Below are positions 382 through 18,739 of a stretch of DNA of 64,000 bases, one piece after another. How positions within the stretch are numbered: position 1 is the first letter of the stretch; each line of letters begins with the position of its first letter. Location of the stretch: positions 1 through 64,000 of the forward strand of contig NZ_JAGSPK010000001.1 in the NCBI RefSeq assembly GCF_018139565.1, given 5' to 3'. The stretch comes from Cognatundibacterium rivi. GTDB lineage: Bacteria > Pseudomonadota > Gammaproteobacteria > Burkholderiales > Burkholderiaceae_D. The position numbers and the translations under genes are program-made. The notes beneath the pieces are model-generated. The model had not been told where the DNA came from. It made no database searches and worked only from the letters and a program-made list of their open reading frames with translations.

Positions 382-2952
382 TCAGCCAGCTTGCTTCTCA
401 AGTATTTCAGCCGATTTAAGTACAGCCTGAACGGCTCGGTCTATCAGAGGGGCATTTTCAACAAACGTCAGTGCTCCATTGCCAGAATAATGGGAGAAAC
501 TTTCGTCGCTGATAATAACGGGCTCAGCTTGTTGATTCAGACTCAATATCAGGTTGCTCATATTTGGGTTGACCCAGGCAATGCAGCCTCGCTTAATGAG
601 GTTATCAATTGCGAGTTCTATTGGCGCCCCACTGTATAAGCGTTGCTGTATTTCCGAAGATTTACTTTCTTCCTGCGTCATTAGTACCGGCAAAGCATCT
701 TCATTTGTCAGGGGAGCTTGTGTTTTGCTGGCTTCGACGAAGACAACGTTCAACTGCAATTCTGCGAGCACCTCATGCAGATGCTTTTCAACCTCGTGAT
801 ACTTATTTTTCTCGATGGAATCAGACAAAACTACCGCTGGCTGCTCCAAAAAATTTAAAAATATCTCTCGAATCTGCGCTAACGTCTTAGCTGTTGAAAA
901 TTCCTGCGCGGGCAGCAATACCCCACGATGCCTTTCATGCAACCAGTTCAATAAGGCATTCTGTTTAAACTGAGTCCAATCCAACATTGCAATACCGCGC
1001 CTGAGATCAGTCAACATCCCAGGCAGCAGCGCGGAAAGCTGACTTTGTTCGTCTTGAGAATTTTTTGGCTGAATGCTCCATATCAGGTCCGGCACAAGTG
1101 CGCGCAAATGGGAAGCCAGTGATGGCTCAGTTCGCTCGGCGATGTTAATTGCCCGCACCCACTCCGTCGCCAGGAAATTAGCGAAATGCTGGGGCACATC
1201 CAGCTTCGCCAAGCCGCCCATCAGCAGCGAGGAAGTTTGTTCCGCGCGCAGATAACGGATTTGCGCTTCTTCTATTGACTTCACCGTACGCCTGATGAAC
1301 TTATCCTGCGTTCTTAATTCTGTAGAAATAAACGTATCAAATCGGTTATATATCCGCTCAAATAGTTCTGGCACACGACAATCATGTCGGGATAAGGTTT
1401 TAAATACCCTGGAAATTTCTTCTTCAATTTTGCGCTGAGTCGCAGGTAAATGCTGCGTTCCAAGCAATACCGATGCGATCCGGTTCAGCAGCAACCGGGC
1501 AGCTTGATGCTGGTTACTCAAAAACGTATGGTCACTCAAAGCCAACTGCAACAATAGAAACTGAAGGCGTCCCAACTGCTCTCGTAATTCTTTCGAAAGC
1601 AAATCATCGAATAGTATCGACTCGAACAACATCGCCAGCACATCAATAATCATGAGCTCCTCTGTCGAGCGAGCTAATGCTGAAAATGCCTCACGTTGTT
1701 CACGAATCAGATTACGCACATCGCCGCGGTCATTCAGAATACTCAGATCCGGTTTCATCGACAGGTGCAAATAACCTAGCGTACGAATCAAATCCTTTTC
1801 AATCAATAACTCATCTAACTCAGAAGGCGCAGCGTTAATTTGTACGGGAACAGGTAAATGACTAAAGCGCTCGACCAAACCCCGAATCGCAGATTGCGCC
1901 ATCTCTGCGCTTGGTAAAGGTGCCTCCGGTTGCGCTTGCTGGCTTGCAAGATCAAAATCCCTTCCGCGTTGTGAAGGACGTGATTGCCCAAAAGTTTTTC
2001 GCAACAGCTCAGGCAAATCGGATGTATTGGCAAGCCATGCGGGTGACGAAGAGTTGTCTTGCGGCGCAACACTCGGGCTATACCCGGAAAATGCGGTTTT
2101 TTCTCTACCGCGCAAAACCTGAAACAACTGGTCTATGTTAATGGACGGATTACCGATCGAAGATGGCGGCAGCGATCTGGCATCCTCCACCGCAGGAAAA
2201 TCGAACTGATTAAATGCCGGAAAAGCGTTATTGATCTGTTGGCTAGCAACAATATTCTGCGGCGTCCCGACGCTGCTACTTCTGGGATACAACGTTTCTG
2301 CTGATTTATTTATTTTTAAGGAAAGATGCGCATGCACACCGTGCTTCTCTAATTCGGCGTTGGTTTGCTGATAAATACCCGGAATATCCACCGTCAGGGT
2401 TTCGCCCAGCTGCATCGCCAGTATCGAAAACATTTCCTGAGTGAGGCGCAAACTTTCTACGGCGAGAAAAATGCAACGGGTTATCAGGTAAGGCCGGAAA
2501 GGATTTTCCCGCTCGCGTATATCGTCCTGACCAAACAAAACAGCGATACGGATATTCAGATCAATCAACTCTTGCTCTGCGACATTCCGGAACAGCTGTG
2601 TGACTTCATTAAAGCGCAACGAACTCTCAAATGCCGATGAATCAAGCAGACTCAGATTATCGGCAGAGATGGAAAGCGCGGATAAATTGGGGCGAAAGTT
2701 CTGATAGGTCGTTTCCATGCTCCTATCAAGCAACTGTTGCATATTTTTCGTCAGTTGCAGTTCAATTTCGTGGCGATGCTCCTGCAACAACAGTTGAGCA
2801 CGGACGACGTCAGCCTGTTCTATCGGGCTATTTTCTGAATTTACCTTAGAAAACAAAGCCTCCACTGTACGTGGAACCAGAGTTGTGGCGGCATTTTGAA
2901 AGGCATTAAAAAATTCTCTGCGTGCGCTCGACAGTATTTCAACCAATGCCAT
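382..2952 (-). CDS. DUF1631 family protein
   Basis: An 856-residue cytoplasmic protein with no signal peptide or membrane segment, rich in predicted helix and in Gln, Leu and Glu. I recognise it as the DUF1631 family, which is common in Beta- and Gammaproteobacteria; its biochemical role is not established and the label thymidine phosphorylase sometimes attached to it is not supported. The ATG has AAGG five bases upstream. It is the last gene of the minus-strand cluster, 109 bases after topB, and probably cotranscribed. It ends within 100 bases of the upstream rrn promoter and reads in the same direction, so it could read into the rRNA operon. Confidence 0.8.
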   Translation of the reverse strand: MALVEILSSARREFFNAFQNAATTLVPRTVEALFSKVNSENSPIEQADVVRAQLLLQEHRHEIELQLTKNMQQLLDRSMETTYQNFRPNLSALSISADNLSLLDSSAFESSLRFNEVTQLFRNVAEQELIDLNIRIAVLFGQDDIRERENPFRPYLITRCIFLAVESLRLTQEMFSILAMQLGETLTVDIPGIYQQTNAELEKHGVHAHLSLKINKSAETLYPRSSSVGTPQNIVASQQINNAFPAFNQFDFPAVEDARSLPPSSIGNPSINIDQLFQVLRGREKTAFSGYSPSVAPQDNSSSPAWLANTSDLPELLRKTFGQSRPSQRGRDFDLASQQAQPEAPLPSAEMAQSAIRGLVERFSHLPVPVQINAAPSELDELLIEKDLIRTLGYLHLSMKPDLSILNDRGDVRNLIREQREAFSALARSTEELMIIDVLAMLFESILFDDLLSKELREQLGRLQFLLLQLALSDHTFLSNQHQAARLLLNRIASVLLGTQHLPATQRKIEEEISRVFKTLSRHDCRVPELFERIYNRFDTFISTELRTQDKFIRRTVKSIEEAQIRYLRAEQTSSLLMGGLAKLDVPQHFANFLATEWVRAINIAERTEPSLASHLRALVPDLIWSIQPKNSQDEQSQLSALLPGMLTDLRRGIAMLDWTQFKQNALLNWLHERHRGVLLPAQEFSTAKTLAQIREIFLNFLEQPAVVLSDSIEKNKYHEVEKHLHEVLAELQLNVVFVEASKTQAPLTNEDALPVLMTQEESKSSEIQQRLYSGAPIELAIDNLIKRGCIAWVNPNMSNLILSLNQQAEPVIISDESFSHYSGNGALTFVENAPLIDRAVQAVLKSAEILEKQAG

Positions 2953-13578: not shown

Positions 13579-14535
13579 ATGTTGCATACCGTCGCTCAAC
13601 CCTGGATGTGGGTCGCGTTTATCGCATTTGTCTTAGCGATGTTAGCCATAGACGTCGTGGCGCTGGGTGGTTCGCGCGCCCACAAAGTCAGCGTCAGGGA
13701 AGCGGCGGCCTGGTCCGTTGTCTGGGTCAGCCTGGCGCTGGCATTTGATTTTGGTCTGTGGATGTATCTGACGGAAACCGTCGGGCGTGAGATCGCTACC
13801 GCCAAAGCCATGGAATTCCTGACCGGTTATGTCATCGAGAAATCTCTGTCGGTCGATAACATCTTTATCTTCCTGCTGATTTTCGGCCATTTTGCAGTAC
13901 CGCCGCAATATCAGCGCAAAGTTTTGCTGTACGGCGTTCTGGGTGCGATCGTCATGCGCGTCATAATGATTCTCGCCGGTAGCTGGGTTGTCACGCAGTT
14001 TGCATGGGTGTTGTATCTGTTTGGCGTATTCCTGCTGATCACCGGTTTCCGCATGTTGGTGTCGACAGAAGCAGAGCCGGATCTGGATGCCAATCCGGTA
14101 TTGAAACTGGCCAAGAAATTACTGCCATTTACCAAAGAGTTTCACAAAGAAAAATTCAGTATCAAGGTCGATGGTAAGCGCGTCTTTACGCCGTTGCTGC
14201 TGGTCCTGATCCTGATTGAAGTATCCGACGTGATCTTTGCGGTCGATTCGATTCCGGCGATTTTTGCCGTGACAACCGATCCGTTCATCGTGTTCACCTC
14301 TAACATTTTCGCGATTATGGGTTTGCGGGCATTGTATTTCCTGCTGGCCGATATGGCAGACCGTTTCCACTTACTGAAATTCGGTCTTGCGTTTGTGCTG
14401 ATGTTTGTCGGTATCAAGATGCTGATCGTGAAATGGATGCATGTACCGACCGATGTTTCACTGATGGTGATTGGACTGATTCTTGGCGGTTCTATTATTG
14501 CCAGCCTGATCGCCACCCGCCATAAAAAGCATTAA
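13579..14535 (+). CDS. TerC/Alx family membrane protein
   Basis: A 318-residue polytopic protein of the TerC/Alx family, linked to tellurite resistance, manganese export and alkaline response. The conserved acidic membrane motifs SLSVDNIFIFLLIF (about 94-107) and EVSDVIFAVDSIPAIFAVT (about 214-232) are intact. The spacing to the upstream BI-1 gene is three bases. The operon ends at the terminator at 14596-14630. E. coli alx has a manganese riboswitch; I do not see one here. Confidence 0.92.
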   Translation: MLHTVAQPWMWVAFIAFVLAMLAIDVVALGGSRAHKVSVREAAAWSVVWVSLALAFDFGLWMYLTETVGREIATAKAMEFLTGYVIEKSLSVDNIFIFLLIFGHFAVPPQYQRKVLLYGVLGAIVMRVIMILAGSWVVTQFAWVLYLFGVFLLITGFRMLVSTEAEPDLDANPVLKLAKKLLPFTKEFHKEKFSIKVDGKRVFTPLLLVLILIEVSDVIFAVDSIPAIFAVTTDPFIVFTSNIFAIMGLRALYFLLADMADRFHLLKFGLAFVLMFVGIKMLIVKWMHVPTDVSLMVIGLILGGSIIASLIATRHKKH

Positions 14536-14595
14536 TCGCACACGTTTCAACACTGTAAATTTAATCGTTACACGTATTCCCTTTGTATTCCCTTT

Positions 14596-14630
14596 GGGCA
14601 TATCTCTCATTTGAGGATATGCCCTTTTTT
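14596..14630 (+). terminator. intrinsic terminator after the TerC gene
   Basis: A 9-bp stem GGGCATATC / GATATGCCC (14596-14604, 14616-14624), extended by CTCA/TGAG inside, followed by TTTTTT. It ends the BI-1/TerC operon and insulates the metH leader. Confidence 0.9.
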
Positions 14631-14750
14631 GTTAACACTTACGCAAAAAAGTGTCGTCCTCAGACGGTCAGCATATATCGATCTAACCACAATGTATAAG
14701 CAAAACCCGGTAAAAAGCGGCAACCACGGCGCCAAGTCCTTGATCTGACG

Positions 14751-14756
14751 TATAAT
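14751..14756 (+). promoter_or_regulatory. putative -10 element of the metH promoter
   Basis: A perfect TATAAT at 14751-14756. Transcription from about 14763 would start just before the SAM-II-like aptamer. I see no good -35 at normal spacing (the sequence there is GC-rich), so activation by a regulator is possible. Confidence 0.5.
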
Positions 14757-14767
14757 TTCACTTCCCA

Positions 14768-14818
14768 GCGCCGATTTGAGATTCAGATTGCGGGCGCGTA
14801 ATAAGTGCTGCTAAAAGG
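14768..14818 (+). ncRNA. SAM-II-type riboswitch aptamer in the metH leader
   Basis: The stretch reads like the SAM-II (SAM-alpha) aptamer: P1 strand GCGCC (14768-14772), the conserved GATTTG (14773-14778), ATTGC (14787-14791), P1' strand GGCGC (14793-14797), then GTAATAAGTG and the invariant GCTAAA (14810-14815). The order, spacing and the conserved GAUUU, AUUGC and GCUAAA blocks agree with known SAM-II RNAs, which sense S-adenosylmethionine and switch off methionine genes. Its place before metH fits. The pseudoknot pairing (for example CAG 14784-14786 with CTG 14808-14810) is less clear by eye. Confidence 0.8.
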
Positions 14819-14824
14819 ACGTCG

Positions 14825-14866
14825 CCCGATCCGCCTGCATGCATGAGCCGATCGGGTTTTGTTTTT
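14825..14866 (+). terminator. riboswitch-controlled intrinsic terminator (attenuator)
   Basis: A 7-bp stem CCCGATC (14825-14831) / GATCGGG (14850-14856) followed by TTTTGTTTTT. It stands directly after the SAM-II-like aptamer and 130 bases before the metH start, so it would stop transcription before metH. Its 5' strand overlaps CGCCCG (14823-14828), which is perfectly complementary to CGGGCG (14791-14796) in the aptamer, giving an alternative antiterminator helix. Confidence 0.75.
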
Positions 14867-14868
14867 CT

Positions 14869-14967
14869 GGACTGATGCAACATCGCCCCGGCGGCGTAAT
14901 GGCTTCTGGTCGTACTAATGTACTGCCTGCGTCGCCATGCCTTGCCGGAACAATGTTGCATCAGTCC
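14869..14967. repeat. palindromic GGACTGAYGCAA element, copy A
   Basis: A 99-base element bounded by a perfect 15-bp inverted repeat, GGACTGATGCAACAT and its complement ATGTTGCATCAGTCC. The interior can pair further (CCGGC/GCCGG, GGCG/CGCC) and holds a small hairpin GTACtaatGTAC. Its left 44 bases align with the reverse complement of copy B (40287-40350) at 35 of 44 positions by my hand count. It lies between the metH attenuator and the metH ribosome binding site. It could be a miniature inverted-repeat transposable element or a REP-like repeat. Confidence 0.75.
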
Positions 14968-14995
14968 TATTGATACGACGATGCGAGTAAAGATC

Positions 14996-17900
14996 ATGAC
15001 CAGAACCCTGCCTGTTTCCGCCACCGAAACCCGTTTGCGCGAATTGCTGCAACAACGCATCCTGATCCTGGATGGCGCGATGGGCACCATGATCCAGCGT
15101 TACAAGCTGACGGAAGAAGATTATCGTGGCGAGCGTTTCAAGGATTTTGCGGTTCCGGGTAAGGAATTATTCGTCAAAGGCAACAATGAATTACTGACCC
15201 TGACACAACCGCACATCATTCAGGAAATTCACGAACAATATCTGGCCGCCGGTGCCGATCTGATCGAAACCAATACCTTTGGTGCGACGACCGTCGCACA
15301 AGACGATTACCACATGGCGCATCTGGCCTATGAGATGAACGTGCAGGCGGCAAAAATCGCCCGCGCTGCCTGTGATAAATACAGCAGCGCCGACAAACCG
15401 CGCTTCGTCGCCGGTGCGCTGGGGCCAACGCCAAAAACCGCCTCGATTTCACCCGATGTGAATGATCCGGCAGCGCGCAATGTCACGTTCGATCAACTGG
15501 TGGCTGCCTACCATGAGCAAACCCGTGGTCTGGTAGAAGGCGGCGCCGACGTGCTGCTGGTCGAAACGATTTTCGATACGCTGAATTGCAAAGCGGCGTT
15601 GTTCGCGATTGATCAGTATTTTGAAGAAACTGGCAAAACCTTACCAATCATGATTTCCGGTACGGTAACGGATGCATCGGGCCGTATTTTGTCAGGGCAA
15701 ACCGTACCTGCATTCTGGAATTCCGTGCGTCACGCCAAGCCGCTGACCATCGGTCTGAACTGCGCACTCGGTGCGGCGCTGATGCGGCCGTATGCAGAAG
15801 AACTGTCCAAAATCGCCGACACCTTCGTCTGTATTTATCCGAATGCCGGTTTGCCGAATCCTATGAGCGATACCGGTTTTGATGAGCTGCCAGCCGACAC
15901 TTCCGCCTTGCTGAAAGAATTTGCTGAAGCCGGTTTCATCAACATCGCCGGTGGTTGCTGCGGCACCACGCCGCCGCACATCAAAGCGATTGCCGATATC
16001 TTGCAAACCCAGGCGCCACGCGTCGTTCCTGAGATTGCGCCGGCCTGTCGTTTATCTGGTTTAGAGCCTTTCACCATCGATGAACAATCTCTGTTTGTGA
16101 ATGTCGGTGAACGCACCAATGTCACGGGTTCGAAAGCCTTTGCCCGTTTAATTTTGAACGAGCAATACGATGACGCTTTAGCCGTCGCCCGCCAGCAAGT
16201 GGAAAACGGCGCACAAGTCATCGACATCAATATGGATGAAGCGATGCTCGATTCGCTGGCAGCCATGACACGCTTCCTGAATCTGATCGCGTCGGAACCG
16301 GATATTGCCCGTGTACCGCTGATGATCGATTCGTCGAAATGGAGTGTGATCGAAGCTGGTTTGAAATGCGTGCAAGGCAAAGCCATCGTCAATTCGATTT
16401 CGATGAAAGAAGGCGAAGCAGAATTTCTGCGTCAGGCTAACTTGTGCAAGCGTTATGGCGCAGCGGTGATCGTGATGGCGTTTGATGAAAAAGGCCAGGC
16501 AGACACCTATCAACGCAAAATCGAAATCTGCGAACGCGCTTATCGCCTGCTGGTTGATCAACTTGATTTTGATCCGCAGGACATTATTTTCGATCCGAAT
16601 ATTTTCGCGGTCGCCACCGGTATTGAAGAACACAATAACTACGCGGTCGATTTCATTGAAGCGACACGCTGGATACATCAAAACTTACCCGGCGCAAAAA
16701 TCAGCGGTGGTGTCTCGAATGTGAGTTTCTCTTTCCGTGGCAATGATCCGGCACGCGAAGCGATCCACACCGTCTTCCTGTATCACGCGATTCAGGCTGG
16801 TATGACGATGGGTATCGTGAATGCCGGTATGGTCGGCGTGTACAGCGAGCTTGATCCCGAATTGCGTGAACGCGTGGAAGACGTGGTGCTGAACCGTCGG
16901 GAAGATGCCACCGAACGCATGATCGAATTTGCAGCGACACTGAAAGCGGGCGGCAAGAAAGAAGAAGCCACACTGGAATGGCGCAGCGAGCCGGTTGAAA
17001 AACGCCTCGCGCACGCGATGGTGCATGGCATCACGCAATGGATCGTTGAAGATACCGAAGAAGCGCGCGCCACGATTATGAACAATGGCGGCCGCCCGAT
17101 ACAAGTGATCGAAGGCCCGCTGATGGATGGCATGAATATCGTCGGTGATTTATTCGGTCAGGGCAAAATGTTCCTGCCGCAAGTGGTCAAATCGGCGCGT
17201 GTGATGAAGCAGGCGGTCGCTCATCTGGTGCCGTTTATTGAAGAAGAAAAAAAACGCAGCGGCGACAATAAACCGAAAGGCAAGATCGTCATCGCCACCG
17301 TCAAAGGCGACGTGCATGACATCGGTAAAAATATCGTTACCGTCGTGCTGCAATGTAATAACTTTGAAGTCGTGAACATGGGTGTGATGGTGCCGTGTTC
17401 GGAAATTCTGGCGAAAGCCAAAGCCGAAAACGCCGACATCATCGGTCTCTCCGGTCTGATCACGCCATCACTCGAAGAAATGGCGTATGTCGCAAAAGAG
17501 ATGCAGCGCGATCCGCATTTCCGCATGATGAAGATTCCGCTGCTGATCGGCGGCGCCACCACCAGCCGCGCGCATACTGCGGTGAAAATTGCACCGAATT
17601 ATGAAGGCCCGGTCGTGTATGTGCCGGATGCTTCGCGCTCGGTATCGGTCGCGCAATCACTGCTGACGCCGGAAAGCCGTGATCAGTACATTGGTGAGCT
17701 GGCGACGGATTACGAACGTATCCGCGTGCAACATGCAAACAAAAAAACCACACCATTGCTGACGCTGGCGCAAGCGCGTGCCAATAAAATGAAGCTCAGT
17801 TTTGATGGTGCGAACGCGCCGGTCAAACCAAAATTCATTGGTCGTCGTGTATTTAAAAACGTCGATCTGGCAACGATTGCGCAGTACATCGACTGGGGTC

Positions 17901-18739
17901 CGTTCTTCCAGACCTGGGATCTGGCCGGCCCGTATCCCGCGATTCTGACCGACAGCGTCGTTGGTGAAGCTGCCAGCAAAGTGTTTGCCGAAGGTCAGGC
18001 GATGCTGAAGAAAATCATCGATGGCCGCTGGCTGACAGCGAACGGCGTCGTCTCTTTGCTGCCTGCGAATAGCGTGCATGACGACGACATCGAAATTTAT
18101 ACCGACGACAGCCGCAGCCAGGTCGCATTCACCTATTACGGCACGCGCCAGCAAACTGAGAAGCCGCTGGTCGATGGCATACAGCGTCCGAATCAATGCC
18201 TCGCTGATTTCATCGCGCCGAAAGACAGCGGCATAGCGGACTACATCGGCATGTTCGCTGTCACAGCCGGTCTGGGAATCGAAAAATACGAAAAACGTTT
18301 TGAAGACGCGCATGACGATTACAGCAGCATCATGCTGAAATCGCTGGCAGACCGTCTGGCCGAAGCCTTCGCTGAATATCTGCACGAACGCATCCGCACC
18401 GATCTGTGGGGCTATGCCGCCGATGAAAAACTCAGCAATCAAGAGCTGATCAAAGAATCCTACCAGGGCATACGCCCGGCACCAGGCTATCCGGCCTGCC
18501 CGGAACACACGGTTAAAACCGCGATGTTCACGCAAATGCAATGCGAAGAAATCGATATGCATATCACCGAATCATGGGCGATGATTCCGGGTGCCGCGGT
18601 CTCCGGTTTCTATTTTGCGCATCCAGAATCCAAATACTTCAGCGTCGGCAAAATCGGCGACGATCAGGTCATGGATATGGCGACACGACGCGGCGTGGCG
18701 AAGGAAGAAGTCGAACGCTGGTTAGCACCGAATTTGTAG
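14996..18739 (+). CDS. metH: cobalamin-dependent methionine synthase
   Basis: A full-length 1247-residue MetH that transfers the methyl group of 5-methyltetrahydrofolate to homocysteine through cobalamin. Domains in order: homocysteine-binding (about 1-340; zinc ligands Cys256, Cys321, Cys322), pterin-binding (about 360-630), cobalamin-binding with the cap (about 650-890; DVHDIGKN with the cobalt-ligating His774), and the reactivation domain (about 910-1247; [12 protein letters not shown]) that binds S-adenosylmethionine. I chose the ATG at 14996, which has GAG eight bases upstream; an ATG at 14981 lacks a site. It is preceded by a SAM-II-type riboswitch and attenuator. Confidence 0.97.

Follow-up and report, generated by a model that had tools for sequence, protein, structure and literature searches.

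A probable SAM-II class riboswitch with an intrinsic terminator in the metH leader of Cognatundibacterium rivi

The leader of metH in Cognatundibacterium rivi contains an RNA element (14768–14815, forward strand) that is most probably a SAM-II class riboswitch switching metH off at the level of transcription, a reading to which we give a probability of about 0.92. SAM is assigned as the ligand from class membership, and the OFF direction is inferred. All coordinates refer to the window, i.e., the whole stretch of DNA that was analyzed (64,000 nucleotides, the first positions of contig NZ_JAGSPK010000001.1 of assembly GCF_018139565.1), and the features are collected in Table 1. Judged by the sequence evidence, the element would be ordinary in kind and located on a seemingly unreported target. 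The gene on the 5' side of the leader encodes a TerC/Alx family membrane protein. The nearest named relatives at metH belong to Undibacterium (91–92%, among the best 80 of 585 confirmed candidates).

Table 1 Features of the metH leader in the window.
Feature	Position	Strand	Basis
Putative promoter, -10 box TATAAT	14751–14756	+	Read from sequence; 11 nt 5' of P1
Whole predicted SAM-II aptamer according to model R1	14766–14824	+	53.9 bits, E 1.5e-14 (window)
P1 5' strand GCGCC	14768–14772	+	From sequence; P1 pairs standard in 424/424 cells
GATTTG(A) loop strand with conserved uridines	14773–14779 (GATTTG 14773–14778)	+	Columns G8, A9, U11, and U12 invariant in 87/87
ATTGC block, predicted P2 strand	14787–14791	+	UU invariant in 87/87
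P1 3' strand (P1') GGCGC	14793–14797	+	From sequence; P1 pair alignment
GTAATAAGTG	14798–14807	+	Between P1' and GCTAAA
GCTAAA, 3' strand of the predicted pseudoknot P2	14810–14815	+	Each letter 87/87 except one A (86/87)
CGCCCG, candidate antiterminator with CGGGCG (14791–14796)	14823–14828	+	Complementarity, 6 pairs; inferred
Intrinsic terminator	14825–14866 (CCCGATC 14825–14831, GATCGGG 14850–14856, T tract 14857–14866)	+	Read from sequence
metH, B12-dependent methionine synthase	14996–18739 (ATG 14996)	+	TIGR02082 1715 bits (cut-off 1011); NF007024 2120 bits

A sequence-only reading of this DNA had recognized the SAM-II order of blocks in front of metH. All of the blocks that it named were found, in the same order, and a search for the ordered pattern gave one occurrence in the 64 kb and none in 100 dinucleotide shuffles. 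A cmscan search of 14530–15010 (481 nt) gave a full-length match of the Rfam SAM-II model (RF00521, SAM_alpha) at 14758–14834 with 29.5 bits and an E-value of 8.4e-5, and the E-value in a search of the whole genome was 1.6e-4. This check supports SAM-II, yet the score is below the gathering score of 36 for the family, and the search of the window yielded no Rfam match at gathering score. We also used R1, a covariance model built from 23 leader elements found in relatives, with metH-linked copies excluded. With no metH leader in its training set, R1 matched the metH element at the score listed in Table 1 and at an E-value of 9.4e-13 genome-wide. The placement of SAM-II before metH in a betaproteobacterium, as first read, was thus supported by both models. 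The remaining sub-threshold Rfam lines in 14530–15010 were regarded as chance, and two of them (mir-5727 and HIV_POL-1_SL) sit on an inserted palindrome. Two further R1 matches were likewise rejected as chance: the second match in the window (16168–16214 on the reverse strand, 19.9 bits, genome E 0.02), which is antisense within metH and misses the middle of the motif, and the fifth match of the genome (14.6 bits, E 0.78).

SAM-V (RF01826), SAM/SAH (RF01727), the SAM-II long-loops family, and the SAH riboswitch (RF01057) are all absent from the eight matches listed at E ≤ 10 in the same segment. The check for SAM-V that accompanied the first reading was therefore negative. Another SAM-family aptamer (SAM-V or SAM/SAH), or a SAH riboswitch sensing SAH rather than SAM, might still be considered, because the triple-helix pseudoknot core of SAM-V is nearly superimposable on that of SAM-II, as the accessible text of the SAM-V paper states (PMC6061858), and because SAH riboswitches control SAM-cycle genes of betaproteobacteria, including metH in Comamonadaceae (accessible text of PMC4239095). 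Indeed, the first reading had expected a SAH riboswitch for metH in this group. Such a riboswitch does exist in the genome; its only match at E ≤ 1 (C5:613944, 57.9 bits) is located before ahcY, and none is present at metH. Furthermore, SAM-V acts on translation, whereas the metH leader has a terminator. With RF01826, RF01727, and RF01057 unlisted at E ≤ 10 against 8.4e-5 for RF00521, we consider it extremely unlikely that the leader belongs to one of these other families.

The structure of the aptamer was analyzed in an alignment of 87 R1 matches from 84 loci fitted to R1, with P1 counted on 85 distinct sequences. The P1 cells all hold standard pairs (Table 1); 28 of them are changed on both sides, and such double changes occur in four of the five pairs. 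None of 500 shuffles equaled the counts of P1 pairing and double changes, and versions of P1 slid along the alignment came nowhere near them. The outer pair shows 22 C-G swaps, of which 21 are in metK-type leaders (one shared swap) and one is in L279. The P1 helix is supported by covariation, which is mostly due to this one shared change in the metK-type leaders. The uridine columns U11, U12, U26, U27, and U59 are invariant in 87/87 sequences and are present in the window. In the ATTGC block, the G and C after UU are kept in 86/87, while the first A is variable and is C in 72/87. The P2 strands are present but nearly invariant, which makes covariation impossible for P2, and its pairing follows from analogy. 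P2a is short in the window element, consisting of UUC with GGA at best (by eye). The uridines of the metH element that we take to contact SAM were assigned in part by analogy with SAM-V.

In the SAM-V structure, a U:A·U triple is formed around the SAM sulfonium, and SAM-II is stated to bind SAM in virtually the same manner (accessible text of PMC6061858). By analogy with SAM-II and SAM-V, the GATTTGA strand would serve as the third strand of the pseudoknot triple helix; the mapping of residues is our own. A duplex of UUU with AAA was dropped since the SAM-V paper shows a triple helix (accessible text of PMC6061858), and for the same reason the UUU/AAA columns were not counted as pairs. One loop uridine is replaced by G in 22 of the 87 sequences: in 20 metK leaders, in L153 at a contig end, and in L090 before metH. 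The last of these (1071–1127, reverse strand), the metH leader of genome G036, combines the GAGUU loop of the metK leaders with a P1 of GCGCC/GGCGC.

The elements used to train R1 were located by BLASTX before metX (19/23) and metZ (3/23), and one (L027) is before neither of these nor before metH or metK. RF00521 was found in 53 of the 145 genomes of the GTDB family at E ≤ 0.05 and exceeded its cut-off in two of them (40.6 bits), while R1 matched 143 of the 145 at E ≤ 0.01, covering 43 of 44 genera. Such a difference suggests that the Rfam cut-off hides many SAM-II members. Among 397 genomes drawn from the phylum, 99 have an R1 match at E ≤ 0.001, and 40 of these are outside the class and presumably Alphaproteobacteria. 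When R1 loci were passed through cmscan, RF00521 marked the same place at E ≤ 0.01 in 9 of 10 loci outside the class, one reaching the gathering score, and in 4 of 10 loci inside the class, with no match at that threshold in the other six; these loci were picked by R1, and the set is biased toward R1-like members. Because R1 and RF00521 come from different host groups and agree on the location of the element, we took it as SAM-II, and because only one of the nine RF00521 matches outside the class reaches 36, the cut-off was taken as strict rather than as a defining feature. Three loci outside the class (L266, L267, and L268) have elements before an apparent ABC transporter ATPase gene (MIRLSNVQKTY..., by eye), perhaps for methionine. 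SAM-II-like elements also occur in tandem at two sites of G041, at 1384–1444 and 1511–1567 of L027 and at 1036–1093 and 1148–1206 of L089 (all on the reverse strand).

SAM-II-like elements are therefore present in nearly all sampled genomes of the family; in part, the cut-off of the model and a second name had kept them from view. In Leyn et al. (2014), SAM_alpha was restricted to Rhizobiales and Rhodobacterales, and an RNA described as new, "metXZ", was reported from 35 betaproteobacterial genomes, where it is located before metXW or metZ and has two pseudoknotted pairings and a terminator (accessible text of PMC4239095). Compared by description, host genes, and layout, this RNA is very probably the element type of the window. 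On the published description, the two would agree in host group, in six conserved regions with pairing of regions 1–4 and 2–6, and in a terminator with a proposed antiterminator (accessible text of PMC4239095), and the R1 copies of relatives are located before metX and metZ. They differ in that the metXZ RNA was called new, with no link to SAM-II in the accessible text, and in that its targets are metXW and metZ, not metH or metK (PMC4239095). It might be argued that the metXZ RNA has another effector or a protein partner and merely resembles SAM-II, as it was described as novel by authors whose SAM_alpha scan found that family in two alphaproteobacterial orders only (accessible text of PMC4239095), and as the metH element scores under the gathering score of RF00521. 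We regard this as very unlikely. R1 matches elements outside the class that RF00521 also matches, two relatives are above the gathering score, and the core uridines of SAM-II are kept.

The SAM-II assignment at metH was followed into related leaders, on which the first reading had staked its proposal. Ten leaders were compared, from seven genomes of the genus and three named Undibacterium, some of them possibly near-duplicates. Mean identity to the window in the nine comparisons is 97% from P1 to P1', 89% in the linker to GCTAAA, 59% in the terminator region, 56% in the 20 nt 5' of P1, and 40% in the 110 nt before that. The difference between 97% in P1–P1' and 40% in the upstream flank points to selection. 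In comparison with G063, whose MetH is 99% identical in the N-terminal part, a single base is changed over the segment that runs from P1 through the T tract, and the flanks differ more.

Over the family, 60 further metH leaders were searched with R1 (E ≤ 0.05). Matches were found in 34 of them, representing 19 of 35 genera and always in the orientation of metH, and the other 26 had none at this threshold; the lack of conservation in related metH leaders that the first reading had named as a refutation was thus not observed. The 60 leaders were hand-picked over 35 genera from 139 metH loci and include nine already known R1 carriers, without which the count is 25/51. Ten more metH leaders were fetched for having R1 matches and are excluded from this count. 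A loose block pattern also gave 34/60 by count, including a spurious match in L135 and only the 5' half in L130. Among the named metH loci (the best 80 of 585 confirmed candidates), 14 have R1 in the leader on the metH strand (15 by pattern) and 66 have no such match, and matches on the opposite strand were found in L177 and L217. The carriers include Undibacterium, Noviherbaspirillum, Oxalicibacterium, and metagenome-assembled genomes labelled Oxalobacteraceae, Herminiimonas, and Polynucleobacter. No R1 match was found at the metH loci in these best 80 labelled Massilia, Duganella, Janthinobacterium, Herbaspirillum, Paraburkholderia, Cupriavidus, or Methylobacillus. In many metH copies outside the genus of the window, the P1 loop, the segment from P1' to GCTAAA, or both contain an additional hairpin (by eye). 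Such hairpin-bearing elements are found among L094–L145 (e.g., L100, L126, L139, and L145), and for L128 and L139 cmscan gave no SAM family at E ≤ 0.5. The metH leaders L109, L117, and L135 have no recognizable aptamer and a terminator-like hairpin (CCCGG..CCGGGTTTT) before metH (by eye); their aptamers are either lost or different.

The sequence around the leader has two other features. An insertion of approximately 115 nt (14867–14981) lies between the terminator and metH and is absent in G063. It contains a long palindrome with arms at 14869–14883 and 14953–14967, has 10 further similar places in the genome, and has the appearance of a small non-coding repeat, either mobile or REP-like. A terminator-like hairpin (GGGCATATC..GATATGCCC) with a T tract is located at 14596–14630 on the 3' side of the TerC/Alx gene and is almost unchanged in G063.

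A -10-like box is present 4–26 nt 5' of P1 in 48 of 53 metH-linked elements, compared with an expectation of 5.2 from shuffles. The box was found in 14/19 metK elements but in only 8/45 and 3/18 elements of metX and metZ, respectively. A consensus scan for -35/-10 pairs did not list the TATAAT of the metH leader. The terminator folded alone has an energy of -15.3 kcal/mol, and a stricter terminator scan (loop of 3–8) did not list it. In a census of 132 distinct elements with a home-made finder, a terminator within 130 nt was found after 22/23 elements labelled metH (shuffles 10/115), 34/45 of metX (24/225), 14/18 of metZ (21/90), and 2/19 of metK (8/95). The 27 elements without a gene label, often with a short stretch, have a terminator in 20 cases (shuffles 14/135). 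The full metH leader folds only moderately better than its shuffles (z of -1.39, 19/200 as good), which is uninformative.

Of the two strands of the candidate antiterminator, CGGGCG overlaps P1' and CGCCCG overlaps the 5' arm of the terminator. The fold with P1 (-24.2 kcal/mol) and that with the antiterminator (-22.2 kcal/mol) are 2 kcal/mol apart before the 3' arm of the terminator is made, and in the whole leader at equilibrium the terminator fold (-36.1 kcal/mol) beats the antiterminator fold (-27.8 kcal/mol); these RNAfold energies ignore the pseudoknot and SAM. Because the terminator fold is favored at equilibrium, the switch would have to be kinetic, and the CGGGCG/CGCCCG pairing is plausible as a kinetic one at best. 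The 6-bp pairing is reduced to 4 bp in G032, G119, G104, and U. seohonense. Complementary runs of at least 5 between the terminator arm and the aptamer are present in 53 of the 103 elements with a terminator (of 145 distinct elements), compared with 23% for shuffled arms, which is an enrichment and not a rule. Another arrangement is seen in several metX leaders: there, TTTAGCC, located next to or within the terminator arm, is opposite the 3' pseudoknot strand GGCTAAA.

With the aptamer sequence, the P1 covariation, the recurrence before metH, and the terminator as computed observations, and with SAM taken as the ligand, the metH leader very probably stops transcription at high SAM. Transcription would start a few bases 5' of P1. 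When SAM is plentiful, it would bind an H-type pseudoknot formed by P1, the UUU third strand, AUUGC, and GCUAAA. The bound pseudoknot would hold P1' and the 3' pseudoknot strand and leave CCCGAUC available for pairing with GAUCGGG, and RNA polymerase would terminate at the U tract of this hairpin before metH (OFF). When SAM is low, CGGGCG would instead pair with CGCCCG, and the polymerase would read through into metH. Alternatively, the element may be decayed or constitutive, with a terminator that just lowers metH expression and an aptamer that no longer switches. The equilibrium preference for the terminator fold, the variable antiterminator pairing within the genus, and the repeat inserted between the terminator and metH in this genome are in line with such decay. 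It is nevertheless improbable given the high identity of P1 to P1' over that of the upstream flank, which argues for selection.

Two more strong R1 copies are present in the genome, one at C14:133976 before metX (40.5 bits) and the other at C5:632912 on the reverse strand before metK (32.8 bits). The metX copy (C14:133976–134052, forward strand; L073 1177–1253) has an additional hairpin that separates P1' from the GCTAAA strand and no Rfam match at E ≤ 0.5 by cmscan, and the gene after it is 79% identical to MetX of a relative. At the metK copy (C5:632912–632971, reverse strand; L002), RF00521 alone was matched, with 21.2 bits and an E-value of 0.029. To these we added 20 sites fetched because they were marked by R1 and had a length suggestive of metK; 18 proved to be before metK, while L170 is before metX and L153 is at a contig end. 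Together with those of this genome and G085, the metK leaders total 20 (L002 and, in relatives, L085, L154–L169, L171, and L172). They represent a diverged SAM-II-like form with GAGUU in place of GAUUU and CCGCC/GGCGG as P1, and eight metK loci gave no Rfam match at E ≤ 0.5 by cmscan. The U to G change in the loop may alter ligand affinity or choice. In 10 of the 20 metK leaders, the sequence immediately 3' of the aptamer (in several leaders GCAGGCUC) is complementary over at least 6 bases to the stretch at the start codon, against 5% of shuffles, with start codons chosen crudely by script. Terminators are rare at metK (2/19), and the complementarity is a hint of a translational platform. At slightly less than even odds, we tentatively propose that SAM-II in the family forms a SAM regulon with two platforms, a terminator form at metX, metZ, and metH and a diverged form at metK that would hide the ribosome-binding site.

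Compared with SAM-II as defined by RF00521 and the metA element of Corbino et al. (2005), the window element shares P1 with a predicted H-type pseudoknot, the GAUUU, (A)UUGC, and GCUAAA blocks, a -10 box a few bases 5' of P1, a terminator after P2, and a methionine/SAM gene downstream. It is unlike SAM-II in its metH target, betaproteobacterial host, score under the gathering score, and short P2a. The first reading had taken the element to extend both the range and the targets of SAM-II. The former claim is not supported: the discovery paper already reported other proteobacteria and has Bordetella bronchiseptica in its alignment (Corbino et al., 2005, accessible text of PMC1273637), Alpha-, Beta-, and Gammaproteobacteria have been given as the usual hosts (Meyer et al., 2009, accessible text of PMC2704228), and the metXZ RNA (Leyn et al., 2014, accessible text of PMC4239095) is very probably the same element. 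With respect to targets, bhmT and metX have been described in Pelagibacter (accessible text of PMC5069961) and metA and metZ in Sinorhizobium (accessible text of PMC9373788), and metH is absent from the accessible text of Corbino et al. (2005; PMC1273637), Figure 2c with the target genes aside. No report of SAM-II before metH, or before a betaproteobacterial metK, was found in the literature searched, which was mostly open-access, and to this extent the claim of a new target stands.

According to this finding, methionine synthesis would be subject to SAM feedback through a SAM-II RNA at its methyl-transfer step, which MetH catalyzes. The results further suggest that a separately published betaproteobacterial RNA is SAM-II, which would turn an element without a named effector into a testable SAM sensor.
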